From: Beroe forskalii | Taxonomy: Eukaryota; Ctenophora; Nuda; Beroida; Beroidae | Direction: 5' to 3' | NCBI GenBank assembly: GCA_011033025.1 | Contig: WFMF01000025.1 | Location: forward strand, 607,018 to 671,017 | Length of the DNA stretch: 64,000 nucleotides | Part shown: positions 3,781-50,104 of the stretch, piece by piece | Layout of the letters: the number at the start of each line of letters is the position of its first letter | Position numbering within the stretch: the stretch's first letter is position 1 | Translations under genes and position numbers: made by a program | Notes under the pieces: generated by a model | The model's database searches: none | What the model was told of the DNA's origin: nothing | The model's input: only the letters and a program-made list of their open reading frames with translations

Positions 3781-4639
3781 CAGTCGGCTGCGCCTCAGCT
3801 AAAATCGATTTTCGGCACTTTCCACACTCCGGAGGGGTGTGGAAAGTTAATAGATCGATTTTTCATGCAAAAACTATAGAATCCATACAAAATCGCTTGG
3901 TGTAGAATTTGTCCACTTTTAAATCCAATTTTGACTGTATTATAAGTGCGAAATTAAGTTTCAAAGCGATTCTGAAATTTCGTGCAAAAATATTAAAAAA
4001 TGGCGGAGGAGTAGCGAAAAATGTAAAGTCGATTTTCGCAAAACCGCAAGCTGAGAAAATGGCGATTTTGTGGTTTTTTAGAGGTTTTTTGGACCTCAAA
4101 TGGCCATTTTAGTAGCAATCAACCCCATACTTGCAGAGAATACATAAACCAATGCTATCTATCGAATAAAGTTGGTTTCATTCAAAAATATTGATATTTG
4201 GGCAAGTTATGGGCCAAAATAAGCTTACGCGACGCGCGTATGCCCATATATGGGCATACGTTTTTCGGCCATAACTCGGCCATTTTTTGAGATATCGACT
4301 TCAAATTTTTTATGGTAACTCAGGGGACCATTATCTATTGATTGCACACCTCAGATCTCGTCCAAGTCGCTTTTGAAAAAATATGCCCATTTTAGGCCCA
4401 TATTTGGGCATGGCGCCACGGCGGCGCCAGTGGGTCTGGGGGTACCAAACCCGGCCAAAAAGTTGGCCCATGTGGTGTACCTTTTGGGTCAACCATTATC
4501 TCAGAAACGTGTTTTCCAAAAAATTTGGGTTGAACCCCCCCTTAATGTTAATTTTCGTAATTTGCACTTATGATCTAATACTATCACTATTGCTGTAATG
4601 CTTAGTAAAGAAAAGGAAAAGAAGGAAGATTTGAAGATA

Positions 4640-13968: not shown

Positions 13969-14212
13969 GTATGTTTTCGGCTCAAGTTGAACAGACAGAT
14001 AACTGCTTGAGTTGGGGCCATTGGGGTCTATTACCCAATTGGAGAATATAGTTAAGCGAACAATATTCTATATAGATATCTGTCCTCTACTATATAGACT
14101 ATTAGTTATGCCAACATATCAGCCAAACCGCGACCGTTGCCCCTCAGACTATGAGGGGCCATGTCGTATGGCACTGCGCCTCCGCGGAAGCGCACTTTAC
14201 CTACCTACCTAC

Positions 14213-16165
14213 AGTCACATGGGAAAAAGCAGTTTTCACCCTTATTTTTGGTCCTTGTGGCCCATTATAGACGAAAAAGTCCATTTTCAGCACAAAAATG
14301 GGGGTTTTCGAGAGGCTGTAAATCGTGAAAATGGTCGAAATTCAAAATTCTGAAAGCAGCATTTTCTTAGTTGGATCAAACTGTACTGACCTGCAAAATT
14401 TCATGAGTTAACTAGTAAGTTTATTAGGACGACCCCCCCCTCCAGCCAGACACTGATCAAAATTCAGAAAATTCTCGGACATACTTGGACTTGGGGATAA
14501 TTATGGTTAAAAATGCATCAGTATTTGGTTCTAGCGCACTCTCTGGAAATCAGTCACATGGGAAAAAGCAGTTTTCAGCCCTATTTTTGGTCCCTGTGGC
14601 CCATTATAGACGAAAAAGTCCATTTTTAGCCCAAAAATGGGGGGTTTTCGAGAGGCTGTAAATCGTGAAAATGGTCGAAATTCAAAATTCTGAAAGGAGC
14701 ATTTTCTTAGTTGGATCAAACTGTACTGACCTGCAAAATTTCATGAGTTAACTAGTAAGTTTATTAGGACGACCCCCCTCCAGCCAGACACTGATCAAAA
14801 ATTCAGAAAATTCTCGGACATACTTGGACTTGGGGATAATTATGGTTAAAAATGCATCAGTATTTGGTTCTAGTGCACTCTCTGGAAATCAGTCACATGG
14901 AAAAAGCAGTTTTCAGCCTTATTTTGGTCCTTGTGGCCCATTATAGGCGAAAAAGTCCATTTTCAGCCCAAAAATGGGGGTTTTCGAGAGGCTGTAAATC
15001 GTGAAAATGGTCGAAATTCAAAATTCTGAAAGCAGCATTTTCTTAGTTGGATCAAACTGTACTGACCTGCAAAATTTCATGAGTTAACTAGTAAGTTTAA
15101 TAGGACGACCCCCCCCCCTCCGGCCAGACACTGATCAAAATTCAGAAAATTCTCAGACATACTTGGACTTGGGGATAATCATGGTTAAAAATGCATCAGT
15201 ATTTGGTTCTAGTGCACTCTCTGGAAATCAGTCACATGGGAAAAAGCAGTTTTCAGCCTTATTTTTGGTCCTTGTGGCATATTATAGACGAAAAAGTCCA
15301 TTTTTAGCACAAAAATGGGGGTTTTTGAGAGGCTGTAAATCGTGATAATGGTCGAAATTCAAAATTCTGAAAGCAGCATTTTCTTAGTTGGATCAAACTG
15401 TACTGACCTGCAAAATTTCATGAGTTAACTATTAAGTTTATTAGGACGACCCCCCCTCCAGCCAGACACTGATCAAAATTCAGAAAATTCTCGGACATAC
15501 TTGGACTTGGGGATAATTATGGTTAAAAATGCATCAGTATTTGGTTCTAGTGCACTCTCTGGAAATCAGTCACATGGGAAAAAGCAGTTTTCAGCCTTAT
15601 TTTTGGTCCTTGTGGCATATTATAGACGAAAAAGTCCATTTTTAGCACAAAAATGGGGGTTTTTGAGAGGCTGTAAATCGTGATAATGGTCGAAATTCAA
15701 AATTCTGAAAGCAGCATTTTCTTAGTTGGACCAAACTGTACTGACCTGCAAAATTTCATGAGTTAACTAGTAAGTTTATTAGGACGACCCCCCCCCCCTT
15801 AGGCCAGACATTGATCATAATTCAGAAAATTCTCGGACATCCTTGGACTTGGGGATAATTATGGTTAAAAATGCATCAGTATTTGGTTCTAGTGCACTCT
15901 CTGGAAATCAGTCACATGGGAAAAAGCAGTTTTCAGCCTTATTTTTGGTCCTTGTATTCATTATAGACGAAAAAGTCCATTTTCAGCACAAAAATGGGGG
16001 TTTTCGAGGCTGTAAATCGTGAAAATGGTCGAAATTCAAAATTCTGAAAGCAGCATTTTTTTAGTTGGATCAAACTGTACTGACCTGCAAAATTTCATGA
16101 GTTAACTAGTAAGTTTATTAGGACGACCCAACCCCCACCCCCCCCCCCCCCCCCCCCCCTTAGGC
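14213..16165 (+). repeat. Satellite A, array 1 (~339-bp unit, about 5.7 copies)
   Basis: The marker ttggggataa recurs at 14491, 14830, 15169, 15507 and 15849, a period of 338-342 bp. Each unit contains aatgcatcagtatttggttc, a caaaattcatgag-like stretch and a C run of variable length (accccccct). The array starts abruptly at cagtcacatgggaaaaagca after three ctac repeats and ends in a C-rich tract. The 60-codon frame [15 protein letters not shown] repeats with each unit but is broken in many, so it is not a gene. Confidence 0.95.
16126..16162. repeat. Long cytosine tract
   Basis: The satellite's C run is expanded here to more than 20 consecutive C with two A interruptions before it. Homopolymers of this length are prone to assembly error. 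Confidence 0.9.
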
Positions 16166-17365: not shown

Positions 17366-18047
17366 AGGAATAATAAACTTACTAGTAACTCATGAAATTT
17401 GCAGGTCAGTACAGTTTGATCAACTAAGAAAATGCTGCTTTCAGAATTTTGGATTTCGACCATTTTCACGATTTACAGCCTCTCGAAAACCCCCATTTTC
17501 GGGCTAAAAATGGACTTTTTCGTCTATAATGGGCCACAAGGACCAAAATAGGGCTGAAAACTGCTTTTCCCATTTGACTGATTTCAGAGAGTGCACTAGA
17601 ACCAAATACTGATGCATTTTTAACCATAATTATCCCCAAGTCCAAGGATGTCCGAGAATTTTCTGAATTTTGATCAGTGTCTAACTGAAGGGGGGGGGGT
17701 CGTCCTAATAAACTTACTAGTTAACTCATGAAATTTTGCAGGTCAGTACAGTTTGATCCAACTAAGAAAATGCTGCTTTCAGAATTTTGAATTTCGACCA
17801 TTTTCACGATTTACAGCCTCTCGAAAACCCCCATTTTTGGGCTGAAAATGGACTTTTTGGTCTATAATGGGCCACAAGGACCAAAAATAAGGCTGAAAAC
17901 TGCTTTTTCCCATGTGACTGATTTCCAGAGAGTGCACTAGAACCAAATACTGATGCATTTTTAACCATAATTATCCCCAAGTCCAAGTATGTCCGAGAAT
18001 TTTCTGAATTTTGATCAGTGTCTGGCTGGAGGGGGGGGGGGTCGTCC
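17366..18047 (-). repeat. Satellite A, array 2 (inverted, two copies)
   Basis: Two units in the orientation opposite to array 1, beginning at aataaacttactag and ending at ggtcgtcctaa. With array 1 it forms a head-to-head pair about 1.2 kb apart. Confidence 0.95.
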
Positions 18048-18053
18048 TAATTC

Positions 18054-18370
18054 CCGCCCTGGCCAGGGCGGTAACCCCCCGCGGTAATAGAAAAGACTGG
18101 CCAGGGTATATATTAGACGAACGAGTGTCACAGGGTGATCAGGGCGCTGGCAAGCGCCCGCAGCCACGGAAAAAAAACACCGAGGGCATCTGCCCGAAGG
18201 GCAGATGCCCTCGGCCCGAAGGGCCGAGGGCATCCCAAAGCCAGCATCCCCGGCCCGAAGGGCCGGGGATGTATCAGCATCTGCCCGAAGGGCAGATGCC
18301 CTCGGCCCGAAGGGCCGAGGGCAGCCGAACAGGCCAGCAGTCCCGGCCCGAAGGGCCGGGACTGCTGGCC
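18054..18370. repeat. Cluster of perfect GC-rich hairpins with CCCGAAGGG core
   Basis: At least six perfect inverted repeats share the centre CCCGAAGGG (loop GAA): 18182-18212, about 18207-18231, 18245-18271, 18278-18300, about 18298-18322 and 18332-18370 (18-bp arms). Stem sequences differ between hairpins (gcatctg, cctcgg, tccccgg, cagtcccgg) yet remain fully paired. Two more perfect inverted repeats without this core precede them (18054-18071 and 18139-18156). A C-GAA-G triloop is a known exceptionally stable DNA mini-hairpin. GC content is far above the neighbourhood. Frames through this block are by-products of the repeats. Confidence 0.95.
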
Positions 18371-18815
18371 AGACAGTTCAAACAAGCCAGTAGTACCAGC
18401 ATGAAGTGCTAAAAGTGGTAGCGGAACCGTCTTTCAAGTATTGAAAAATACGTTTGCCAGCGCCTATTATATAAAAATACAATGAATTGCGAAAATCGCG
18501 ATTTTCGAGTCGCGTTTTCAACCTGTTAATTTGATCTGTTTGTCGCGAAAATTTGTACAGACATAGTCGTCCACACGAATAACAAACCCTGAAAATTTCA
18601 TGAAAATCGACCGCGTCGTTTTCTCACAATAAATTATCAAAAAAACGCTATTTTATCAAAAATTAGAAGATGGACTACGACCCGACTCGATGATAAAAAT
18701 TGTGTTTGAGTGTTCTCGAGAACTATAAAAGATACAATTATAATCTCAACGGCATATGAAACTTCAGAATGATGTGCGTGCATTAGGCTATATGAAATTT
18801 TAAAATGACAATTCC
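18371..18815. other. Non-coding spacer
   Basis: Contains a local palindrome gcgaaaatcgcgattttcg near 18490. No gene or other repeat was assigned. Confidence 0.4.
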
Positions 18816-19408
18816 TTAATTGGTTAATTAGCCAATTAAAGTAATTATCGCGTATATCTCAAAAAGTAAAAAGGATATCGTCTTAATTCTAACGGCATTA
18901 TTAACTTACGTCGAAACTACAATTTATTCGTTTCATTTAAGTACCGGTTGCCAAATGCTTAATTAGTTAATTGGCCAATTAAAGTAATTATCGCAATTAA
19001 CTCGAAAAGTAAAAATGATAGCGTCCCAATTCCAACGGCATCATTAATTCAAGCCAAAATTATGATTTGTTCGTTTCATTTAAGTACCGGTTGCCAACCG
19101 CTTAATTAGTTAATTGGCCAATTAAAGTAATTATCGCGTATAACTCAGAAACTAAAAATGTTAGCTTCTTAATTCTAACGGGATCATTAACTTAAGCCGA
19201 TACTACGATTTATTCGTTTCATTCAAGAACCGGTTACCAACCGATTAATTAGTTAATTGGCCAATTAAAGTAATTATCGCCTATAACTGAAAAAGAAAGA
19301 ATGATAGCTACTTAATTTATACGGCATCAGTTACTTACGTCGAAATTACGATTTATTCGTTTAATCTAAATACCGGTTGCCCGCCGCTTAATTAGTTAAT
19401 TGGCCTAT
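18816..19408. repeat. Satellite E, 143-bp unit, about four copies
   Basis: The palindromic marker ttaattagttaattggcc (first copy slightly different) recurs at 18816, 18959, 19102, 19245 and 19388, exactly 143 bp apart. The array is cut off at 19408 by the 3' end of the LINE. Confidence 0.95.
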
Positions 19409-20345
19409 TAATAATAATAATAAGTTACATTTATAATTTATAGTGGCACAACTTCTATCAAACTCAGGTGAGCCACGAAAAATATCAGTCATTAATTCAT
19501 AAACAGTGCGATATATATTCATAAGTCCTGATCAAATTCACCATGATTAAAATATAAGATTCAGCAAACTTGCACCATTTAATAATAATACTAATTACAT
19601 CCAATGTGTAAGCTAATTTTAAACGCATACTACTAGTATTCACTAAAAGCTTCTAAAAACAGATGAGACTTTAATGCGGTTTTAAATAATGATATGTCAG
19701 AACATTGCTTGACATGTAGAGGAAGCAGATTCCAAAGCTTAGGTCCAATTTTGGAAAAACATCTATCACCATAATTAGTAGCCATTCTTGGCTCTACCAG
19801 ATAAACATTAGATCCTAATACATTTGCATAACATAGTTCATTTGAAAGATAGTCTGGGCCAAGGTTATTCATGGCTTTATAAACTAACAATATAATTTTG
19901 TACTTGATTCGCTGTTTGACTGGAAGCCAATGCAGATCTTTCAGTGTTTTGCCTACATGATCATGTTTATAAAGTCCAACAACACACTTGGCTGCAGCAT
20001 TCTGTATTCTCTGAAGTTCAAGCAAAGTGGTCTCATTCACTCCATAGTACAAGGCATTGCAATAGTCAAGTTTACAAACAATTAGGCTGTTGATGATCAG
20101 CTTGAGTTGATCTTGATCAAACAAGAATCTACGTTTATTTATATTTCGCAGCATTCTGAAGGAGTCCTGCTTGACTTTTATAACCTGACTTTTAAAACTC
20201 AAGCTTTCATCAAACAGTATTCCCAAGTTCTTAGCAGTGTTGGTGAATCGAACACAGATGTTCCCAGGAAGGAATACCCCTTTAATGGATAAGTTTTTGA
20301 GAACATTAGGTGGAGCAAACACAATAATTTGTGTTTTACCAGGAC
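19405..20345 (-). mobile_element. 5'-truncated non-LTR retrotransposon (LINE)
   Basis: Minus-strand element with a 3' tail of TTATTA repeats abutting satellite E at 19405-19420. Its 5' end joins satellite B at about 20345. Inside is the C-terminal part of a reverse transcriptase frame. Satellite sequence on both sides suggests insertion into, or recombination between, satellite arrays. Confidence 0.85.
19633..20345 (-). pseudogene. Reverse transcriptase C-terminal fragment of a LINE
   Basis: About 236 codons remain. Motifs typical of CR1/Jockey-like elements after the catalytic palm are visible: KNLGILFDESLSFKSQV, LDYCNALYYGV, LQRIQNAAAKCV, LHWLPVKQRIKYKI, and near the end FSKIGPKLWNLLPLHVKQC. 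The catalytic (F/Y)xDD motif and the endonuclease are missing because the element is 5'-truncated. The annotated frame can be extended to 20415, but those first residues come from satellite B and are not part of the enzyme. The fragment has no internal stop, which suggests a fairly recent insertion. Confidence 0.88.
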
Positions 20346-21150
20346 CTAGAGAACTCAACGAGGACACTATTCTATGCAGAATCATCACATTATGGGGGGT
20401 AGAACATGGTTTCAAAGCCCTAACCCCTTTAGTTTCAGAGTTATGGACGAAAAACCCCTTTTAAGCCCTATGCGTAGCCCCAAAATTGCCCCTATTTAAT
20501 ATATAAGATCTGAAGGTCGAAGAGAACTGAACGAGGACTCTAGCCTATGCAGAATCATCACATTATGGGGGGTAGAACATGGTTTCAAAGTCCTTACCCC
20601 TTTCGTTGAGGAGTTATGGACGAAAAACCCTTTTTTAGCCCTACGCTCAACCCAAAATTGCCCCTATTTAATAAATGATATCTGAAGGTCGTAGAGAACT
20701 GAACGAGGACTCTAGCCTATGCAGAATCATCACATTATGGGGGTAGAACATGGTTTCAAAGTCTTAACCCCTTTCGTTTCAGAGTTATGGACGAAAAACC
20801 CCTTTTTAGCCCTACACATAGCCCCAAAATTGCCCCTATTTAATATATAAAATCTAAAGGTCGTAGAGAACTGAACGAGGACTCTAGCCTATGCAGAATC
20901 ATCACATTATGGGGGGTAGAACATGGTTTCAAAGCCCTAACCCCTTTAGTTTCAGAGTTATGGACGAAAAACCCCTTTTAAGCCCTACGCGTAGCCCCAA
21001 AATTGCCCCTATTTAATATATAAAATCTGAAGGTCGTAGAGAACTGAACAAGGACTCTAGCCTATGCAGAATCATCACATTATGGGGGTAGAACATGGTT
21101 ATATAGTCCTAACCACTTTCGTTTCAGAGTTATGGACGAAAAACATATTT
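20345..21150 (+). repeat. Satellite B, array 1 (~173-bp unit, five copies)
   Basis: The marker atgcagaatcatcacattat recurs at 20374, 20547, 20719, 20891 and 21064. Each unit also has gttatggacgaaaaaccc and aaaattgcccctatttaata. Confidence 0.95.
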
Positions 21151-31440: not shown

Positions 31441-34235
31441 TTAGATATGGTTTACACCGGCATCCAGCACTCCAGGTCTCCAAATAGACCCCCTGATGGG
31501 CAGCCCTTCGGTGGTCATGGCAACAGAGATAGTGGTAACTATGGTAACAGCGGTAACAGCGGTAACTATGGTAACAGCGGTAACTATGGTAACAGCGGTA
31601 ACTTTGGTAACAGCGGTAACTTTGGTAACAGCGGTAACTTTGGTAACAGCGGTAACTATGGTAACACTGATAACTATGGTAACACTGGCAACCATGGTAA
31701 CAGCGGTAACTTTGGTAACAGCAGTAACTATGGTAACAGCGGTAACTATGGTAACAGCGGTAACACTGGATACAATAATTACCATGACAACAGTGATAAC
31801 AACAGTTACCATGGCAACAGCGGGAATAGCAATAATAGTAATCACAACTACCAAGGTAGCAATAATCACCAAGGCAGCAGTGGGGCGTACGGTTGTCAAG
31901 GAAACGGACAATATAGCCAAGCTAATGACAGGATGACACATCCTCCCTCTCAAGATGGTTATCAGAATCCTATGATGAATCATCAGCAACCTTTCAACAA
32001 TCATCAGCCCGGCAATCAGTACAATCCGCCAATAAATCAGTACAATCCGCCAATAAATCAGTACAATCCGCCTATAAATCAGTACAATCAGTCAGGCGGC
32101 AACAGTGCAAGTGGTAACATGCCCAATAACTCTTCCAATGATTACCAAAGTCACATGGAGGGAAGGACTCACCAAGCAGCATTCGGCAGTGAGACTCGAA
32201 GTGAACCCTTCAGACAGGGGGAAGGTCCTCCAGGATCTGATTCCAGGAACCCAGACAGTGGATCAAAGCACGGCTCCCCACGACGCAGGGAGAGTCCAAG
32301 GAGCAGGGGCAGTCCAAGGAGAGACCGGAGTCAGAGGAAGGACAGGAGTCCTCGAAGGGATAGGAGCCCGCGAAGAGATCGAAGTCCGAGGAGAGATAGA
32401 AGTCCGAGAAGAAATAGAAGTCCGAGGAAGGATCGGAGTCCGAAAAAAGATCGAAGTCCCAGAAGGGATCGAAGTTCGAGAAGTCCCAAACGTCACCGAA
32501 GTTCTCGGAGGGACCGAACCCGCAGCCCCAGACGGCGGGACAGCCGCGAGCGAAGTCCGCGGCGGAAGCACGAAAGTCCTCGCAGGGCTCGAGAGAACCC
32601 CCGATCATCGTTTGAAGAACGGGAGAATGTAGATCATCATCAGCAGCAGCAGGGGTCTGGAGGGCAGCTTCAGGGTCCAGGGGGCCTGGGATGGTGGATG
32701 CGGCAGGGAACGCTTTCCAGAACGATGGCAGCTTCATGGAGATGTTCAAGAGGAGGATGGAGGAGCAGAAGCGACAGGAGGAGGAGAAGAAAAAGGCCGA
32801 AATGAAGGTAGTGTTCTCAGGGGGTTGGGAAATGAAACTTGTAAAGCAACATTACGGTTACGGTGACAGTTGGAACTGCAGTTTGCGCGTCTTTGTTATG
32901 TGCGGCTTAAGTTTGCGCGGCGTAAAGACTTATTAAGTCTATACGCCGCGCAAACTTGAGCCGCGCACAAAAAGACGTGCAAATAGCAGTTCCAACTGCT
33001 CTGTTATCATATTCGGTGCATGGGATTAGATTAAGATTATCGACTAATCAAACACTGCAACTAATTTAAACACTGCAACATGAATTTCATTTCCCACAAT
33101 TATTTTGAAAACTTAAGCCATGATACATCATGGGCATGATGACTTCAAGTCAAAATGATAGCATGCTATCATTTTGACTTAATGTCATCTTGGCATTTCT
33201 CATCGGGGAATGTTTTTAAGATGAGGCTGCGCTGAAGTATTGAGCAGGTAAAAGTAGTACGCAGGTTTGTTTCAGTTTTTATCCGAACTTGAAAATTCGT
33301 TAGGCTTTCGTTTTATCGGGGTCCAATTTCGGGATCTAATTTCGGGGTCTAATTTCGGGGTCTAATTTCGATATAATCAAACAATTACCCTCCTAAAATA
33401 ACGTTTGAGTTTCTTTTCAGACGGAGAAAAAGTCGCTGATATTTAGAAAAATCCCCCAAAAGAAGCGGCCCGTGACTGTTCGAACTCTTAGTAATCCAGT
33501 TAAAAAGGTACTCTCCTTGACCAGCATGTGTAATGTGCATTGATTGCTCCCGAAATCTATTTTGCAAAGGACAAAAAAGGGAAAAGTTTTTGTCCTGAAC
33601 AGTTTTTTATGATCAAAGCATGATTTATGTTAAATTGTAAAACCGGTCAACTGGTCTTTGTGTATTGGTTTTTGAGTAAATTAATGATGGTTGAGTAAAA
33701 TGGTTTCAGAAAAAAACTGTTGTAGGAGTAAAATGGTATCAGAGTAAACTGGTGTCAGAGTATACAGGTGTCAGTGTTAACCGGTGCCATAGTAACTGTA
33801 AGCTGATGTAAGAGTGAACTGTTGTCAGAGTAAATTAAACTGTTGTCAGGGTGAAATTGTTGTCACAGTTAGTCAGAGTAATCTGGTGGCAAAGTAAACT
33901 GGTTTCAGAGTCATCTGTTGTCAGACTAAGCTGTTGTCACTTGTCAGACTAATATCATAATCCGGTGTCAGAGACTAGGTTTCCTCTGATCAGTGAGTAA
34001 CGGTACAGTTGTTGTCACAGTTAAGTTGTCACACTAAGAGTAATCTGGTGTCATTGTAAACTGGTGTCAGAGTCTGTGATCAGTGAGTAACGGTACAGTA
34101 CTGTTCCAGGGCGCTGCAAAGAAGCCAGCAGAGGAGGAGGATAATGCGTGGGCAGCCTACATGAGGGAGGTGGAGGCTTACAAAACCAACAGCTGCGCTG
34201 ACGATGACAGGTTCAGCAGGCCCCTGTGTAAGTGA
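31441..34235 (+). CDS. TRIR: TRIR (C19orf43) homologue with repeat and RS domains
   Basis: Coding exons: 31441-32807, 33421-33507 and 34110-34235 (stop TGA). The conserved core reads AFQNDGSFMEMFKRRMEE in exon 1 and NAWAAYMREVEAYKTNSC with DDDRFSRPLCK at the end. This matches vertebrate TRIR (ANDGSFLELFKRKMEEE; DAWAKYMAEVKKYK, CGDDDKTRPLVK), a small nuclear protein reported to interact with telomerase RNA. Upstream in exon 1, an open frame from 31447 encodes NSGNYG-type repeats, QYNPPIN repeats and then an RS domain (SPRRDRSPRRDRS). That frame is one base off the TRIR core; the switch falls near the G run at 32680-32684. A missing G there would fuse them. Otherwise translation may start at Met 32691. 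All later introns are phase 0. No upstream start exon was found; the acceptor at 31440 is good. Confidence 0.82.
31530..31780 (+). repeat. Coding minisatellite (NSGNYG/NSGNFG repeats)
   Basis: Repeated ggtaacagcggtaacta/ttt units within the TRIR-like exon give an Asn/Ser/Gly/Tyr-rich, low-complexity tract of prion-like composition. Long mirror frames on the other phases and strand result from the same repeat. Confidence 0.9.
32867..32998. mobile_element. Foldback MITE, CAGTTCGAACTG family, copy 2
   Basis: Bounded by cagttggaactgc and its diverged inverse gcagttccaactg, with the family's gcgcggcgtaaag core. It lies in the intron after the first TRIR core exon, 60 bp from the donor. Confidence 0.85.
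33147..33180. repeat. 34-bp perfect palindrome
   Basis: aagtcaaaatgatagca is followed directly by its exact inverse. Weaker pairing extends outward (gatgac against gtcatc). Intronic in the TRIR-like gene. Confidence 0.95.
33650..34080. repeat. Degenerate ~20-bp repeats (GTAAACTGGTGTCAGA)
   Basis: Many imperfect copies of agagtaaactggtgtcag in the last TRIR intron. A related inverse form (gacaccagtttacag) is seen at 50513-50585. Confidence 0.8.
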
Positions 34236-42900: not shown

Positions 42901-45900
42901 ACCTGGACACGACCTACACTCACGCAGCTCTGGGTGGTCTGTACGACACCACCAGCTACATGTATACCTCCCCCTTCAGCCAGCCCATGGATAACAAGGT
43001 ATCTTTTGAGACCTGGCCTTATCGTTGGACAACAAGGTATCTTTTGTAGACTTGTATTATGCCACATTTCGTCATTCCAATTCCATCTATCTGTCCATAT
43101 AATATTCCGAGCTGTTCCCTCGCTCAGCGCGGGCATTTAAACCTTAGTTGTAGTGAACTCACGTTCCAATCATCTTTTAGTGAATGTTTGTGAACGTCAG
43201 TGAACGTTCATAATTGAGGAACAATTTTCTGCTGAAGTATGTTATAAAGTAACGCCCAGGAAACAAACTTCATGTTCCAAACGGCTAACTATAGGAATGA
43301 TTTCAGTTTCATAATCTCAGTTTGATCCAACTAAGAAAATGCTGCTTTCAGAATATTGAATTTCGGCCATTTTCACGATTTACAGCCTCTTGAAAAATGG
43401 GCTTTTTCGTCAACAATTGGCCACAAGGACCCAAAATAAGGCTGAAAACTGCTTTTCCCACTGATTTCCAGAGAGTGCATTAGGACCAAATAAGGATGCA
43501 TTTTTACGCAGAGTTATCCCCAAGTCCAAGTATGTCAGAGAATTTTCTGAATTTTGATCAGTGTCTGGCCGGGGGGTCATCCTAATAAACTTACTAGTTA
43601 ACTCATGAAATTTTGCAGGTCAGTACAGTTTGACTCAACTAAGAAAATGCTGCTTTCAGAATTTTGAATTTCGACCATTTTCACGATTTACAGCCTCTCA
43701 AAAACCCAATTTTTGGCCTAGAAATGGACTTCTTCGGTTATAATTGTCCACAGGGACCAAATATAAGGCTGAAAACTGCTTTTTCCCATGTGACTGATTT
43801 CCAGAGAGTGCACTAGAACCAAATAATGATGCATTTTTACGCAGAGTATTCCCCAAGTCCAAGTATGTCGGAGAATTTTCTGAATTTTGATCAGTGTCTG
43901 GCCGGGGGGGTCATCCTAATAAACTTACTAGTTAACTCATGAAATTTTGCAGGTCAGTACAGTTTGACCCAACTAAGAAAATGCTGCTTTCAGAATTTTG
44001 AATTTCGACCATTTTCATGATTTACAGCCTCTCGGAAAGCCCCATCTTTGGGCTAAAAATGGACTTTTTCGTCTACAATTGGCCACAAGGACCAAAAATA
44101 AGGCTGAAGCATGCTTTTTCCCATGTGACTGATTTCCAGAGAGTGCACTAGAACCAAATACTGATGCATTTTTAACCATAATTATCCCCAAGTCCAAGTA
44201 TGTCGGAGAATTTTCTGAATTTTGATCAGTGTCTGGCCGGGGGGGGGTCGTCCTAATAAACTTACTAGTTAACTCATGAAATTTTGCAGGTCAGTACAGT
44301 TTGACCCAACTAAGAAAATGCTGCTTTCAGAATTTTGAATTTCGACCATTTTCACGATTTGCAGCCTCTCGAAAACCCCCATTTTTGGGCTAAAAATGGA
44401 CTTTTTCGTCTATAATGGGCCAAAAATAAGGCTGAAAACTGCTTTTTCCCATGTGACTGATTTCCAGAGAGTGCACAAGAACCAAATAATGATGCATTTT
44501 TAACCATAATTATCCCCAAGTCCAAGTATGTCCGAGAATTTTCTGATCAGCTTGTCTGGCCGGAGGGGGGGGGGTCGTCCTAATAAACTTACTAGTTAAC
44601 TCATGAAATTTTGCAGGTCAGTACAGTTTGACCCAACTAAGAAAATGCTGCTTTCAGAATTTTGAATTTCGACCATTTTCACGATTTACAGCCTCTCGGA
44701 AAGCCCCATCTTTGGGCTAAAAATGGACTTTTTCGTCTACAATTGGCCACAAGGACCAAAAATAAGGCTGAAGCATGCTTTTTCCCATGTGACTGATTTC
44801 CAGAGAGTGCACTAGAACCAAATAATGATGCATTTTTACGCAGAGTATTCCCCAAGTCCAAGTATGTCGGAGAATTTTCTGAATTTTGATCAGTATCTCG
44901 CCGGGGGGGGTCGTCTAATAAACTTACTAGTTAACTCATGAAATTTTGCAGGTCAGTACAGTTTGATCCAACTAAGAAAATGCTGCTTTCAGAATTTTGA
45001 ATTTCGACCATTTTCACGATTTACAGCCTCTCGGAAAGCCCCATCTTTGGCTAAAAATGGACTTTTTCGTCTATAATGGGCCACAAGGACCAAAAATAAG
45101 CTTGAAAACTGCTTTTTCCCATGTGACTGATTTCCAGAGAGTGCACTAGAACCAAATAATGATGCATTTTTAACCATAATTACCCTTAAGTCCAAGTATG
45201 TCCGAGAATTTTCTGAATTTTGATCAGTGTCTGGCCGGAGGGGGGGTCGTCCTATTAAACTTACTAGTTAACTCATGAAATTTTGCAGGTCAGTACAGTT
45301 TGATCCAACTAAGAAAATGCTGCTTTCAGAATTTTGAATTTCGACCATTTTCACGATTTACAGCCTCGAAAAACCCCCATTTCTGGGCTAAAATGGACTT
45401 TTCGTCTATAATGGGCCACAAGGACCAAAAAATAAGGCTGAAAACTTCTTTTTCCCATGTGACTGATTTCAGAGAGTGCACTAGAACCAAATACTGATGC
45501 ATTTTTTAACCATAATTATCCCTAAGTCCAAGTATGTCCGAGAATTTTCTGAATTTTGATCAGTGTCTGGCCGGAGGGGGGGTCGTCTAATAAACTTACT
45601 AGTTAACTCATGAAATTTTGCAGGTCAGTACAGTTTGATCCAACTAAGAAAATGCTGCTTTCACAATTTTGAATTTCGACCATTTTCGATATAGCCTTTC
45701 GAAAACCCCCATTTTTGGGCTAAAAATGGACTTTTTCGTCTATAATGGGCCACAAGGACCAAAAATAAGGCTGAAAACTTCTTTTTCCCATGTGACTGAT
45801 TTCCAAGTCTGACACGTCACTGACTTGTGTCAGTGATGTGTCAGACTTGTGTCAGTGATGTGTCAGACTTGTGTCAGTGATGTGTCAGACTTGTGTCAGT

Positions 45901-48900
45901 GATGTGTCAGTGATGTGTCAGACTTGTGTCAGACTTGTGTCAGTGATGTGTCAGACTTGTGTCAGTGATGTGTCAGACTTGTGTCAGTGATGTGTCAGAC
46001 TTGTGTCAGTGATGTGTCAGACTTGTGTCAGTGATGTGTCAGACTTGTGTCAGTGATGTGAACCATGCCGGTCTTCATTTCTGAGGAATTTGCACGCCAT
46101 CCATGGACGTCCTAAGAAAGACATACCATACTTCAGAATCCCGAAATCAGCCATTTTCCGTCTGTTATTGGGGTTAAAATCGCGTTTTCGGCTTAAAACT
46201 GCCTTTTTCGCCCCTTATTGGGCGTAGATGTCTCATGGGTGGTCAAATAGAAGTGTATCTGGTCACAAATTATGCGCCTGAAACCACTGAACCAATGATA
46301 TTCGCTAGTTTTCCTTTGTTTTCCTGTAAAATCCAAAAAACCCTATTTTTACCTCTAAAAAAAGTGATCCAGGACGTTCTTCATTTCTGAGGCACCCAAG
46401 ATCCGAAATCGAAAAGCTTTGGCCGATTGAGCTGAAAATTTGCACGCCATCCATGGACGACCTAAGAAAGACATACCATACTTCAGAATCCCGAAATCAG
46501 CCATTTTCTGTCTGTTATGGGGGGTTAAAATAGCGTTTTTCGGCTTAAAAACTGCCTTTTTTCGCCCCTTATTGGGCGTAGATGTCTCATGGATGGTCAA
46601 ATAGAAGTGTATCTGGTCATAAATTATGCGCCTGAAACCACTGAACTAATGATATTCGCCAGTTTTCCTTTGTTTTCCTGTAAATTCCAAAAAAGCCTAT
46701 TTTTACCTCTCAAAACAGTGATCCAGGACGTGCTTCATTTCTGAGGCACCCGAGATCCGAAATCGAAAAGCTTTGGCCGATTGAGCTGAAAATTTGCACG
46801 CCATCCATGGACGACCTAAGAAAGACATATCATACTTCAGAATCCCGAAATCAGCCATTTTCTGTCTGTTATGGGGGGTTAAAATCGCGTTTTCGGCTTA
46901 AAAACTGCCTTTTTTCGCCCTTATTGGGCGTAGATGTCTCATGGGTGGTCAAATAGAAGTGTATCTGGTCATAAATTATGCGCCTGAAACCACTGAACCA
47001 ATGGTATTCGCCAGTTTTCCTTTGTTTTCCTGTAAAATCCAAAAAAACCCTATTTTACCTCTCAAAACAGTGATCCAGGATGTTCTTCATTTCTGAGGCA
47101 CCCAAGATCCGAAATCGAAAAGCTTTGGCTGATTGAGCTGAAAATTTGCACGCCATCCATGGACGACCTAAGAAAGACATACCATACTTCAGAATCCCAA
47201 AATCAGCCATTTTCCGTCTGTTATGGGGGGTTAAAATCGCGTTTTTGGGCTTAAAACTGCCTTTTTTCGCCCCTTATTGGGCGTAGATGTCTCATGGGTG
47301 GTCAAATAGAAGTGTATCTGGTCATAAATTATGCGCCTGAAACCACTGAACCAATGATATTCGCCAGTTTTCCTTTGTTTTCCTGTAAAATCCAAAAAAC
47401 CCTATTTTTTCCTCTCAAAACAGTGATCCAGGACGTTCTTGTTTCTGAGGCACCCAAGATCCGAAATCGAAAAGCTTTGGCCGATTGAGCTGAAAATTTG
47501 CACTTCATCCATGGACGACCTAAGAAAGACATATCATACTTCAGAATCCCGAAATCAGCCATTTTCTGTCTGTTATGGGGGTTAAAATCGCGTTTTCGGC
47601 TTAAAAACTGCCTTTTTCGCCCCTTATTGGGCGTAGATGTCTCATGGGTGGTCAAATAGAAGTGTATCTGGTCATAAATTATGCGCCTGAAACCACTGAA
47701 CCAATGGTATTCGCCAGTTTTCCTTTGTTTTCCTGTAAAATCAAAAACCCTATTTTACCTTTCAAAACAGTGATCCAGGACGTTCTTCATTTCTGAGGCA
47801 CCCAAGATCGAAATCGAAAAGCTTTGGCCGATTGAGCTGAAAATTTGCACGCCATCCATGGACGACCTAAGAAAGACATACCATACCTCAGAATCCCGAA
47901 ATCAGCCATTTTCTGTCTGTTATGGGGGTTAAAATCGCGTTTTGGGCTTAAAACGCCTTTTTTCGCCCTTATTGGGCGTAGATGTCTCATGGGTGGTCAA
48001 ATAGAAGTGTATCTGGTCATAAATTATGCGCCTGAAACCACTGAACCAATGATATTCGCTAGTTTTCCTTTGTTTTCCTGTAAAATCCAAAAAACCTATT
48101 TTTACCTCTCAAAACAGTGATCCAGGACGTTCTTCATTTCTGAGGCACCCAAGATCCGAAATCGAAAAGCTTTGGCCGATTGAGCTGAAAATTTGCACGC
48201 CATCCATGGACGACCTAAAAAAGACATACCATACTTCAGAATCCCGAAATCAGCCATTTTCCGTCTGTTATGGGGGGTTAAAATCGCGTTTTTCGGCTTA
48301 AAAACTTCCTTTTTTGGCCCCTTATTGGGCGTAGATGTCTCACGGGTGGTCAAATGGAAGTGTATCTGGTCATAAATTATGCGCCTGAAACCACTGAACC
48401 AATGATATTCGCCAGTTTTCTTTTGTTTTCCTGTAAAATTCAAAAAACCCTATTTTTACCTCTCAAAACAGTGATCCAGGCCGGTCTTCATTTCTGAGGC
48501 ACCCAAGATCCCAAATCGAAAAGCTTTGGCCGATTGAGCTGAAAATTTGCACGCCAACCATGGACGACCTAAGAAAGACATACCATACTTCAGAATCCCG
48601 AAATCAGCCATTTTCTGTCTGTTATGGGGGTTAAAATCTCGTTTTCGGCTTAAAACTGCCTTTTTGGCCCCTTATTGGACGTAGATGTCTCATGGGTGGT
48701 CAAATGGAATTGTATCTGGTCATAAATTATGCGTCTGAAACCACTGAACCAATGATATTCGCCAGTTTTCCTTTGTTTTCCTGTAAAATCCAAAAACCCC
48801 TATTTTACCTCTCAAAACAGTGATCCGGGCCGGTCTTCATTTCTGAGGCACCCAAGATCCGAAATCGAAAAGCTTTGACCGATTGAGCTGAAAATTTGCA

Positions 48901-50104
48901 CGCCATCCATGGACGACCCCAAAATCAGCCATTTTATGTCTGTTATGGGGAGTTAAAATCGCGTTTTTCGGCTTAAAAACTGCCTTTTTTGGCCCCTTAT
49001 TGGGCGTAGATGTCTCACGGGTGGTCAATAGAAGTGTATCTGGTCATAAATTATGCGTCTGAAACCACTGAACCAATGATATTCGCCAGTTTTCTTTTGT
49101 TTTCGCGTAAAATTCAAAAAACCCTATTTTTACCTCTCAAAACAGTGAACCAGGCCGGTCTTCATTTCTGAGGCACCCAAGATCCCAAATCGAAAAGCTT
49201 TGGCCGATTGAGCTGAAAATTTGCACGCCATCCATGGACGACCTAAGAAAGACATACCATACTTCAGAATCCCGAAATCAGCCATTTTCTGTCTGTTATG
49301 GGGGGTTAAAATCTCGTTTTTCGGCTTAAAAACTGCCTTTTTTGGCCCCTTATTGGACGTAGATGTCTCACGGGTGGTCAAATGGAATTGTATCTGGTCA
49401 TAAATTATGCGTCTGAAACCACTGAACCAATGATATTCGCCAGTTTTCCTTTGTTTTCCTGTAAAATCCAAAAAACCCTATTTTTACCTCTCAAAACAGT
49501 GATCCAGGCCGGTCTTCATTTCTGAGGCACCCAAGATCCGAAATCGAAAAGCTTTGACCGATTGAGCTGAAAATTTGCACGCCATCCATGGACGACCTAA
49601 GAAAGACATACCATACTTCAGAATCCCGAAATCAGCCATTTTCTGTCTGTTATGGGGGTTAAAATCGCGTTTTCGGCTTAAAACTGCCTTTTCCATGGGT
49701 AGTCAAAATCAGCCATTTTCTGTCTGTTATGCCAAAACAAAATGATTTTACTGTTATTTCATTAAATTTTCAAATCCAGTATCGCGTGATAAACCAACTC
49801 GTTCTACCCTCAGCTAGAGATGAGTGGGATAGTGGATCCCTCCCGGTCCCTCTGTGCTCTCCTGGAGGAGAACGACCAGTTCCACCTCAACCCAGACTGC
49901 AACCTGATGACGCAATCTAACCTCATGTCATCCCTTTCCATCCCCTGGGAGACTAACAATCTCCATGGCAACAGAGACTCCCTCCATGGCAACAGAGACT
50001 CTCTGCATGGGTCCTGCGGAGGGTTAGACCAGGGCTCCCAACACTCAGGACTCATCGGGCAGACTGTCAAGTATTCCGATATCTTGCTACAACATGCCGA
50101 ATGA
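36985..50104 (+). CDS. GLIS: GLIS-family zinc-finger transcription factor
   Basis: Coding exons: 36985-37065 (tentative first), 39137-39259, 40694-40873, 41126-41266, 42013-42174, 42287-42397, 42574-42664, 42892-42998 and 49814-50104 (TGA). All join in phase, about 428 residues. Five C2H2 fingers of the GLI/GLIS/ZIC type occupy the middle: CRWTGC...HIEKVH, CYWANC...HMRVH, CTYIGC...HLRSH, CTQAGC...HLRTH and CQVPGC...HAKAH. The stretch [20 protein letters not shown] is the signature of GLIS1/GLIS3 rather than GLI or ZIC. Such proteins are nuclear DNA-binding regulators; in vertebrates GLIS3 also localises to cilia. Finger 1 is split just before its last His by an intron. The first exon assignment and possible exons near 37.33 and 38.03 kb are uncertain. 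The last exon rests on phase, acceptor and plausible composition. Confidence 0.88.
37280..38270. repeat. CTCTCTAACCCC minisatellite
   Basis: Long pyrimidine-rich array of variable 12-17 bp units in the first GLIS intron. Its left edge abuts a frame reading [20 protein letters not shown] and its right edge one reading [20 protein letters not shown]; both look like coding sequence. Confidence 0.85.
39830..42259. promoter_or_regulatory. Cluster of RFX X-box motifs in the GLIS locus
   Basis: Five exact matches to GTNRCC-N(0-3)-RGYAAC lie within 2.4 kb: 39830-39842, 40537-40549, 40782-40795 (inside coding exon 3), 41480-41493 and 42246-42259. Two of them (gttgccatggcaac and its t/a variant) are near-perfect palindromes. 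RFX factors bind such sites, often in ciliary genes. Function here is inference. Confidence 0.5.
40694..40873 (+). CDS. GLIS: GLIS exon with zinc finger 1
   Basis: 60 codons, phase 0 at both ends. Encodes an acidic lead-in, a short GNHGSHGN segment made by ggtaacc/atggtagcc repeats, then [18 protein letters not shown] and HIEK; the second zinc-binding His is the second residue of the next exon. Confidence 0.92.
41126..42397 (+). CDS. GLIS: GLIS exons with zinc fingers 2-5
   Basis: Three phase 0 exons, 41126-41266, 42013-42174 and 42287-42397. Finger 2 is C-x4-C-x15-H-x3-H, as in GLIS. Fingers 3-5 keep the TGERPY-type linker and the DPSSLRKH helix that contacts DNA in GLI proteins. The last residues, [10 protein letters not shown], are basic and could help nuclear import. 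Confidence 0.92.
43315..45805 (-). repeat. Satellite A, array 3 in the last GLIS intron
   Basis: About seven units of ~335 bp in array 2 orientation, with cctaataaacttactag recurring. The array ends at cccatgtgactgatttcca, the same unit position at which array 1 starts. Confidence 0.95.
45806..46058. repeat. 22-bp minisatellite (GTGTCAGTGAT...CAGACTT)
   Basis: Regular alternation of gtgtcagtgat and gtgtcagactt, about eleven copies with one irregular spot near 45905. It bridges satellites A and C. Confidence 0.95.
46062..49725. repeat. Satellite C (~350-bp unit, 11 copies)
   Basis: The marker catccatggacgacctaag recurs at 46098, 46448, 46802, 47154, 47506, 47853, 48201, 48554 (variant), 48904, 49229 and 49583. 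Units differ by a few percent and by small indels. The last unit is cut about 90 bp before the final GLIS exon. Confidence 0.95.

Follow-up and report, generated by a model that had tools for sequence, protein, structure and literature searches.

Non-autonomous Helentrons of the HINE or DINE-1 type are non-coding and reach high copy numbers (PMC4067079). According to the accessible part of that description, a palindromic subterminal inverted repeat is located 2-4 nt inward of the 5' end and recurs inside the element, at 38-60 nt from the 3' end; there is also a 3' palindrome, and the central part consists of tandem repeats and a microsatellite. Insertion occurs between two T residues (T^T). 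For the Helitron2-like elements FoHeli1 and FoHeli2 of Fusarium oxysporum, the available text (PMC5148889) reports a TCAG start and a terminal hairpin that recurs in inverted form inside the element; in FoHeli1, this hairpin is TCAGCC-GAA-GGCTGAC. In Helraiser, the left end has been described as essential and the right hairpin as a terminator (PMC5876387, in the portion available). Bacterial REP/BIME sequences, in the partial accounts consulted, are dispersed short palindromes tied to TnpA-REP, a transposase acting on hairpins of single-stranded DNA. Mitochondrial GC clusters and palindromic hairpin elements are short, GC-rich palindromes of mobile appearance in AT-richer DNA.

The locus described here lies in contig C303, which is 960 kb long and belongs to an assembly of 216 Mb from the ctenophore Beroe forskalii; in the part of the literature seen (PMC11184263), the assembly of Beroe ovata comprises 92 Mb, far below this size. 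Within a 64-kb stretch of this contig, hereafter the window, an earlier note had described six perfect C-GAA-G hairpins with co-varying arms. We consider it probable, at roughly two chances in three (0.68), that this cluster forms the 5' end of a family of rolling-circle transposons in the nuclear genome that are Helitron-like and non-autonomous. The hairpins themselves were confirmed as described. The motif CCCGAAGGG occurs six times in the window, each time on the plus strand (18193, 18215, 18254, 18284, 18306, and 18347), with a chance expectation of 0.15 and without any of 100 shuffled sequences reaching six. The block spans 18180-18370, starting at 18180 instead of the 18182 given before. 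It consists of hairpin 1 (18180..18214, 16-bp stem), hairpin 2 (18204..18234, 14 bp), hairpin 3 (18245..18271, 12 bp), hairpin 4 (18277..18299, 10 bp), hairpin 5 (18297..18323, 12 bp), and hairpin 6 (18332..18370, 18 bp), all on the plus strand and all with a GAA loop on a perfect stem.

The six hairpins are not independent of each other. The left arm of hairpin 2 overlaps the right arm of hairpin 1, and hairpins 4 and 5 (18277-18299 and 18297-18323) overlap as well, so that the full stems cannot all form simultaneously. Hairpins 4 and 5 repeat the inner parts of hairpins 1 and 2, respectively, as a duplicate within a 53-nt direct repeat of 96% identity, and hairpins 3 and 6 are 93% alike across 28 nt; thus, there are about four independent stem types rather than six. 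The paralogous hairpins 3 and 6 carry differences at neighboring positions in each of their two arms, and this is the co-variation that had been noticed earlier. A search of the window against Rfam at gathering score gave no match, and a tRNA scan of the window found none.

The hairpin array is not free-standing but belongs to a dispersed element without coding sequence, termed family A, of which it fills the initial ~330 nt. Copies were searched for with a DNA query covering 18040-18520; from 1162 candidates, 40 copies were scored and 30 were fetched. These 30 copies, on which the counts of starts, divergence, arm changes, and singleton and shared changes given below are based, were picked by their similarity to the window copy, so that shorter or older arrays are under-represented. 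All 30 have the start (A)TCAGGGCGCTGG in common, while 2 of the 40 scored matches begin slightly inside, at query positions 104 and 113 and not at 99. The DNA upstream of this start differs among the 30 copies, save where a copy follows a family C or B element (see below) or another repeat. The window copy represents the 5' part of the element (18139..19421, plus strand); its likeness to other family A copies stops at ~19421, where the 3' tail is cut off. Four other copies that could be traced end to end have a full length of 2358-2384 bp.

The 5' terminus of family A (18139..18159, plus strand) consists of TCA followed by the palindrome GGGCGCT-GGCA-AGCGCCC, which forms subterminal inverted repeat 1. 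Its sequence GGGCGCTGGCAAGCGCCC starts 3 nt inside the 5' end, behind TCA, and thus at the distance of 2-4 nt that is typical of such repeats in HINEs. Subterminal inverted repeat 2, CGTTTGCCAGCGCC (18451..18464, plus strand), is an inverted copy of the 5' end and can close the entire hairpin domain; its core GCCAGCGCC is intact in each of the 30 fetched copies. In full copies, this second end repeat is located ~310 nt from the 5' end and ~2 kb from the 3' end. The array is followed downstream by a short AT-rich part, by tandem repeats of 143 bp, and by a long inverted repeat at the 3' end. In the window copy, the tandem repeats comprise 4.2 units (18815..19411, plus strand), and such units are present in 29 of the 30 fetched copies, the exception being L029. 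The 3' inverted repeat, read in five copies, has arms of ~135 bp flanking ~390 bp. Four of these five copies terminate in ...GGCTATCCA, and the fifth (L041) in ...GGCTATCC followed by T. The outer ends of the element are not inverted repeats of each other. In one of the five copies (L040, 779-1171), the ~390-bp middle of the 3' inverted repeat has the reversed orientation compared to L039 and L041-L043.

Hairpins of the same kind are found in a second family. Family B starts with TCAGGGGGCTGGCAAGCCCCC; the one copy read to its 3' end is ~1.66 kb long and ends with ...GGGAAA. The family carries GAA hairpins of its own, many of them with an internal GA/GA tandem mismatch: where the inner stem of a GAA hairpin has six pairs, GA/GA comes next in 34 of 41 cases. 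From position 886 of L026 onward, there is a B variant in which some arms are fully Watson-Crick paired (GCTC...GAGC), while other B copies read GCGA...GAGC with tandem G-A mismatches. L037 (190-1502) contains a chain of three B elements followed by one A element (B-B-B-A) in a single orientation, separated only by short AT repeats.

Directly upstream of the window copy lies a separate 88-bp element, family C (18051..18138, plus strand), which has a palindromic end (CCGCCCTGGCCAGGGCGG) and to whose 3' A the family A copy is joined. At least 81 places match family C, of which 42, including that of the window, have 99-100% identity; these places derive from 40 scored among 807 candidates. Neighboring C elements share the same orientation, head-to-tail, in all 41 pairs listed, and they often form runs whose members are -1 to 28 nt apart. 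With 88 bp, family C is unusually small for a mobile element. It starts with TTCC, unlike the TC of the A and B ends, it has no hairpin array, and its DNA fold alone is not unusual (z -1.19). The array of the larger elements is itself of variable length and is shorter in L082, L085, L086, and L105. As copies with short arrays and the array-less family C are dispersed as well, a large number of hairpins is not essential. Three blocks of the window (14212-16129, 17371-18051, and 43393-45805) contain tandem repeats with units of ~335-339 bp, and the C and A elements begin where the second block ends.

In the whole genome (216 Mb), the A/B end pattern has 625 matches compared to 0 for the reversed control, and CCCGAAGGG has 2892 matches compared to 832. 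The motif is nuclear, as the earlier note had supposed, and repeated throughout the genome. A sample of 43 loci, taken in contig order among the first ~100 listed of the 2892 places and omitting L001/L002 (2 motifs, stems of 4) and L005-L007 (3 motifs, stems of 6), contains 76 motifs. Stems have at least 6 bp in 48 of them and at least 9 bp in 24, and the remaining 28 stems have 3-5 bp. The mean number of extra pairs around CCCGAAGGG is 4.6 of 7 in this sample compared to 1.75 expected with equal base use, a value that is too low for GC-rich DNA.

Two empty sites, both read in paralogous sequence, reveal where the elements insert. A B copy in L053 (3928-5584) interrupts one of two paralogous genes encoding Helitron_like_N, while the paralogue L054 (5450-5600) is uninterrupted and reads ...GGCCAACAA^TCCCTTATATG at the junction, i.e., ...CAACAA^TCCC. 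In contig C570, an A copy is inserted into the microsatellite of a B element; the B copy L006 is uninterrupted at this position and reads ...GTATATGTATA^TACCTCTATAT, i.e., ...GTATA^TACC. In both cases, the insertion is between A and T without a clear duplication, with room for a 1-2 nt duplication of A/AA. A constant target-site duplication, as for a TIR transposon or MITE, is found at neither of the two sites. The base preceding TC is A in all 55 distinct A/B ends fitting TCAGGGNNCTGGC; L086, which falls outside this count, has an altered end (TCAGGGTGCCAGC) with a C before TC. The window copy of family C is preceded by ...CCTAA, and at the corresponding place the adjoining satellite has CCTAATAAAC, indicating A^T on that side, too. 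The mobile unit is not the hairpin itself but the larger element around it, of ~1.7 kb in family B and ~2.4 kb in family A.

Several features of these families point to a rolling-circle mode of transposition: the TC start, the A^T insertion, the non-inverted ends, the head-to-tail runs of family C, and the palindromic subterminal repeats. With the canonical Helitrons (Helitron1) including Helraiser, the A/B elements share the 5' TC, the insertion between A and T without target-site duplication seen at the two empty sites, and a structured end, as far as the consulted portion of the Helraiser study extends (PMC5876387). They differ in the lack of coding sequence and of a 3' CTRR with a hairpin ~10-12 nt upstream, an arrangement absent in the plus orientation from the 3' ends of five A copies and one B copy. 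The long 3' inverted repeat of family A is also not a standard Helitron feature. The likeness to HINE/DINE-1 elements comprises the palindromic subterminal repeat, its second inner copy, and the central repeats. In contrast to these elements and to Helentrons and Helitron2 in general, the target at both empty sites is A^T instead of T^T or a T-rich sequence, and the second repeat lies ~310 nt from the 5' end instead of ~20-60 nt from the 3' end. Where a HINE has a short palindrome near the 3' end, family A carries a long inverted repeat with ~135-bp arms. Neither the hairpin array nor such a 3' inverted repeat appears in the accessible part of the HINE description (PMC4067079). The GAA loop in the terminal hairpin of FoHeli1 is a striking parallel to families A and B, but FoHeli1 and FoHeli2 have one terminal hairpin as opposed to a nearby array, their inverted repeat is located 38-51 bp from the 3' end, and autonomous members are known, according to the same partial source as above (PMC5148889). 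The REP/BIME sequences offer a parallel as dispersed palindromes tied to a transposase that acts on hairpins of single-stranded DNA, but they are short and bacterial. As the CTRR end, the TT target, and a second repeat near the 3' end are lacking, the families are likened to the Helitron type, with Helitron2/HINE as the most similar in anatomy, and not filed as members.

An autonomous partner was searched for among Helitron genes of the assembly. Helitron_like_N has 20 matches in the genome, and among nine frames scanned, three contain Helitron_like_N and two PIF1. The A/B ends are not shared by 11 upstream (L053-L056, L057-L063) and 6 downstream (L064-L069) flanks of Helitron genes, taken from some of these 20 matches, nor by L110; the flanks extend over 2-6 kb and may miss the ends of the elements. 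The sole end match is the B insertion in L053. BLAST matches between the flanks and A/B loci (L060-L029, 201 bp; L069-L030, 123 bp; L068-L028, 624 bp with 76% identity; L068-L025, 56 bp) fall in DNA flanking the A and B copies, outside the elements. In L068 (4620-4712), a GC-rich hairpin cluster with a GGA triloop and CCAGGG/CCCTGG palindromes is located ~2.8 kb past the frame for a Helitron helicase.

The predicted DNA fold of 18139-18464, in which the two end repeats pair and close the domain, has -116 kcal/mol compared to -58.8 +/- 4.3 kcal/mol for 100 shuffled sequences (z -13.3). Divergence among the 30 A copies is 0.4% in the first 36 columns, 2.5% in the stems, 4.4% in the loops, and 5.3% after the array; linkers inside the array diverge by 12%, partly through alignment. 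The ratio of singleton to shared changes is 56:27 in the stems compared to 32:62 downstream (Fisher p 1e-5), in a test that takes changes to be independent and leaves out columns holding fewer than 20 letters; errors of the assembly within hairpins would inflate its result. Loops also have few shared changes (14:3), and the two end repeats together (2:1) do not differ significantly from the downstream part (p 0.28). Thus, stems mutate at least as readily and yet pass on fewer of their changes, which is what one would expect if copies that are still moving depend on pairing. The depletion of shared stem variants relative to singletons suggests selection on structure and lends some support to this part of the earlier note.

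Between copies, however, the arms do not change together. Among the stem changes in the 30 A copies, 100 are one-sided, whereas 4 cells are compensated on both sides and 4 are changed on both sides without compensation (105 gap cells were set aside). The compensated cells belong to L021, L026, and L034, and the arrays of L021 and L034 are visibly rearranged. That nearly all stem changes are one-sided is the expectation for dead copies. Ongoing arm-to-arm correction in family A was rejected on the basis of these 100 one-sided and 4 compensated changes. Consequently, the joint change of both arms holds for the hairpins within the window array but not for copies of the element, and the fold-back copying proposed in the earlier note is not seen as arm-to-arm copying in the 30 copies, although it could have built the array originally.

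A coordinated change is visible at the level of families. Of 36 CG-type ends, 34 are matched by an inner GCCAGCGCC, as is the single TG-type end, while 14 of 18 GG-type ends are matched by an inner GCCAGCCCC. The other six ends have neither of the two inside, and none is crossed in type. Thus, the terminus, its second arm, and the inner copy changed together between A and B, which amounts to one family-level event. A putative compensatory intermediate, GCCATCGG/CCGAGGGC, is present in L084 and L098 and stands between the C-G form and the A-T form (L071, L092), in a direction that is not polarizable.

Within the preferred reading, transposition of these elements may be envisaged as follows. A Rep-helicase supplied in trans by Helitrons elsewhere in the genome would nick the TC end and peel off one strand. 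On the peeled strand, pairing of the two end repeats and folding of the hairpins would yield a compact single-stranded DNA domain that could serve end recognition, protection, or the start of the second strand. The array may have grown via duplication and template switching, in line with the chained arms and with GAA to TTC loop flips in L031, L082, and L084, and inserted copies would then simply decay. Tentatively, and with rather low confidence, we suggest that the multi-hairpin end is itself selected, its stable GAA triloops, joined in family B by stacks of tandem G-A mismatches, acting together with the pairing of terminus and inner copy to license or start second-strand synthesis, similar to single-stranded replicon origins and hairpin signals of bacteria. 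For a Helitron, an end made up of several very stable single-strand hairpins in series would be unusual, and the enzyme linked to it is a proposed one.

This functional part of the preferred reading, though not the class of the element, competes with the possible but somewhat doubtful alternative that the array is a neutral by-product. CCC-GAA-GGG would snap back during rolling-circle synthesis and prime copying of its neighbor, so that paired arms need no function. The chained inverted repeats of hairpins 1 and 2, the differences on both arms of the paralogous hairpins 3 and 6, the GAA to TTC flips, and the variable array length all fit such an origin, while the scarcity of shared stem changes compared to singletons argues against it, as does the preference for GAA, which forms the loop in 151 of 177 GC-rich triloop hairpins on one strand, although most of the loci counted had been selected because they contain the motif or copies carrying it. 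It is unlikely, to a greater degree, that the same element has to be read on the minus strand as a canonical Helitron1, with a 3' end ...CGCCCTGA|T and the hairpins as an elaborated 3' terminator. CTGA|T would fit CTRR plus a host T, with an adjacent hairpin and A^T insertion, and since TCAG and CTGA are the same bases on opposite strands, sequence alone cannot decide the orientation. However, no gap of ~10-12 nt separates the hairpin from the end, which it touches directly, and the other end would begin with TGGATAGCC in family A or TTTCCC in family B and not with TC.

Other readings have less in their favor. The long perfect stems would form in RNA, too, and might act in a transcript of the element as a small-RNA precursor or a terminator, but this is improbable in view of the absence of Rfam matches in the window and of the position of the array, which is fixed at one end of the DNA element and bound up with the boundary of the insertion. 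The two inverted repeats could also delimit a TIR transposon of ~326 bp, either a MITE or a foldback element, whose 14-bp ends would lie at 18143 and 18464, beside unrelated DNA. All 30 fetched copies run past 18464 in shared sequence (one to ~18570, two to ~18900, and the rest further), although a query reaching to 18520 favored such copies; the empty site of family A places the boundary at the long 3' repeat, and there is no constant target-site duplication. A stand-alone element of this kind was therefore judged highly improbable.

An origin from mitochondrial or other organelle GC hairpins, or from contamination, has a negligible probability. The mitochondrial contig C1134 (13,339 bp) has ~17.5% GC, its COX1 is read with TGA=W, and ARAGORN, run with the bacterial code, found no tRNA in it. 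These properties agree with the Beroe forskalii mitochondrial genome, for which the part of the publication seen gives 17.3% GC, no tRNAs, and the mould/coelenterate code (PMC6991124). C1134 contains no copy of CCCGAAGGG; thus, the organelle reading fails, and the likeness to organelle GC clusters is superficial, the hairpins of B. forskalii being nuclear and part of an element of 1.7-2.4 kb with defined ends. Contamination or vector sequence is likewise not supported: plasmid and phage collections gave no match, and the 21-nt end had none in a collection of bacterial and archaeal genomes. Two open reading frames of C1134 (L050-L052), at 4311 and 7546, have a stretch of ~50 aa near the start in common, which suggests a partial gene duplication fused to another frame.

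The DNA structures that guide Helitron ends are poorly known. With its hundreds of copies, its legible empty sites, the co-varying A and B types of end, and its very stable hairpin array, the family provides natural variants with which it can be asked whether the enzyme or the second-strand machinery reads the folding of single-stranded DNA rather than its sequence. Such an element would add an unusual repeat type to comb-jelly genomes. Among open-access publications on Helitrons and ctenophores, judged by title and the start of the abstract, no such element is described; a search combining ctenophore, hairpin, transposable element, and GC-rich found nothing, and literature on GNA triloops, DNA hairpins, and transposons contained nothing relevant.

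Further repeats and frames lie in the window beside these elements. A repeat of 354 bp occupies 46087-49692. Perfect palindromes comprise one of 34 bp at 33147-33180 and two identical ones of 24 bp (CGTATGCCCATATATGGGCATACG) at 1034-1057 and 4237-4260, 3.2 kb apart. Downstream of the truncated family A copy, an open frame of 275 aa on the minus strand (19633-20460) looks like the end of a putative LINE-type reverse transcriptase.
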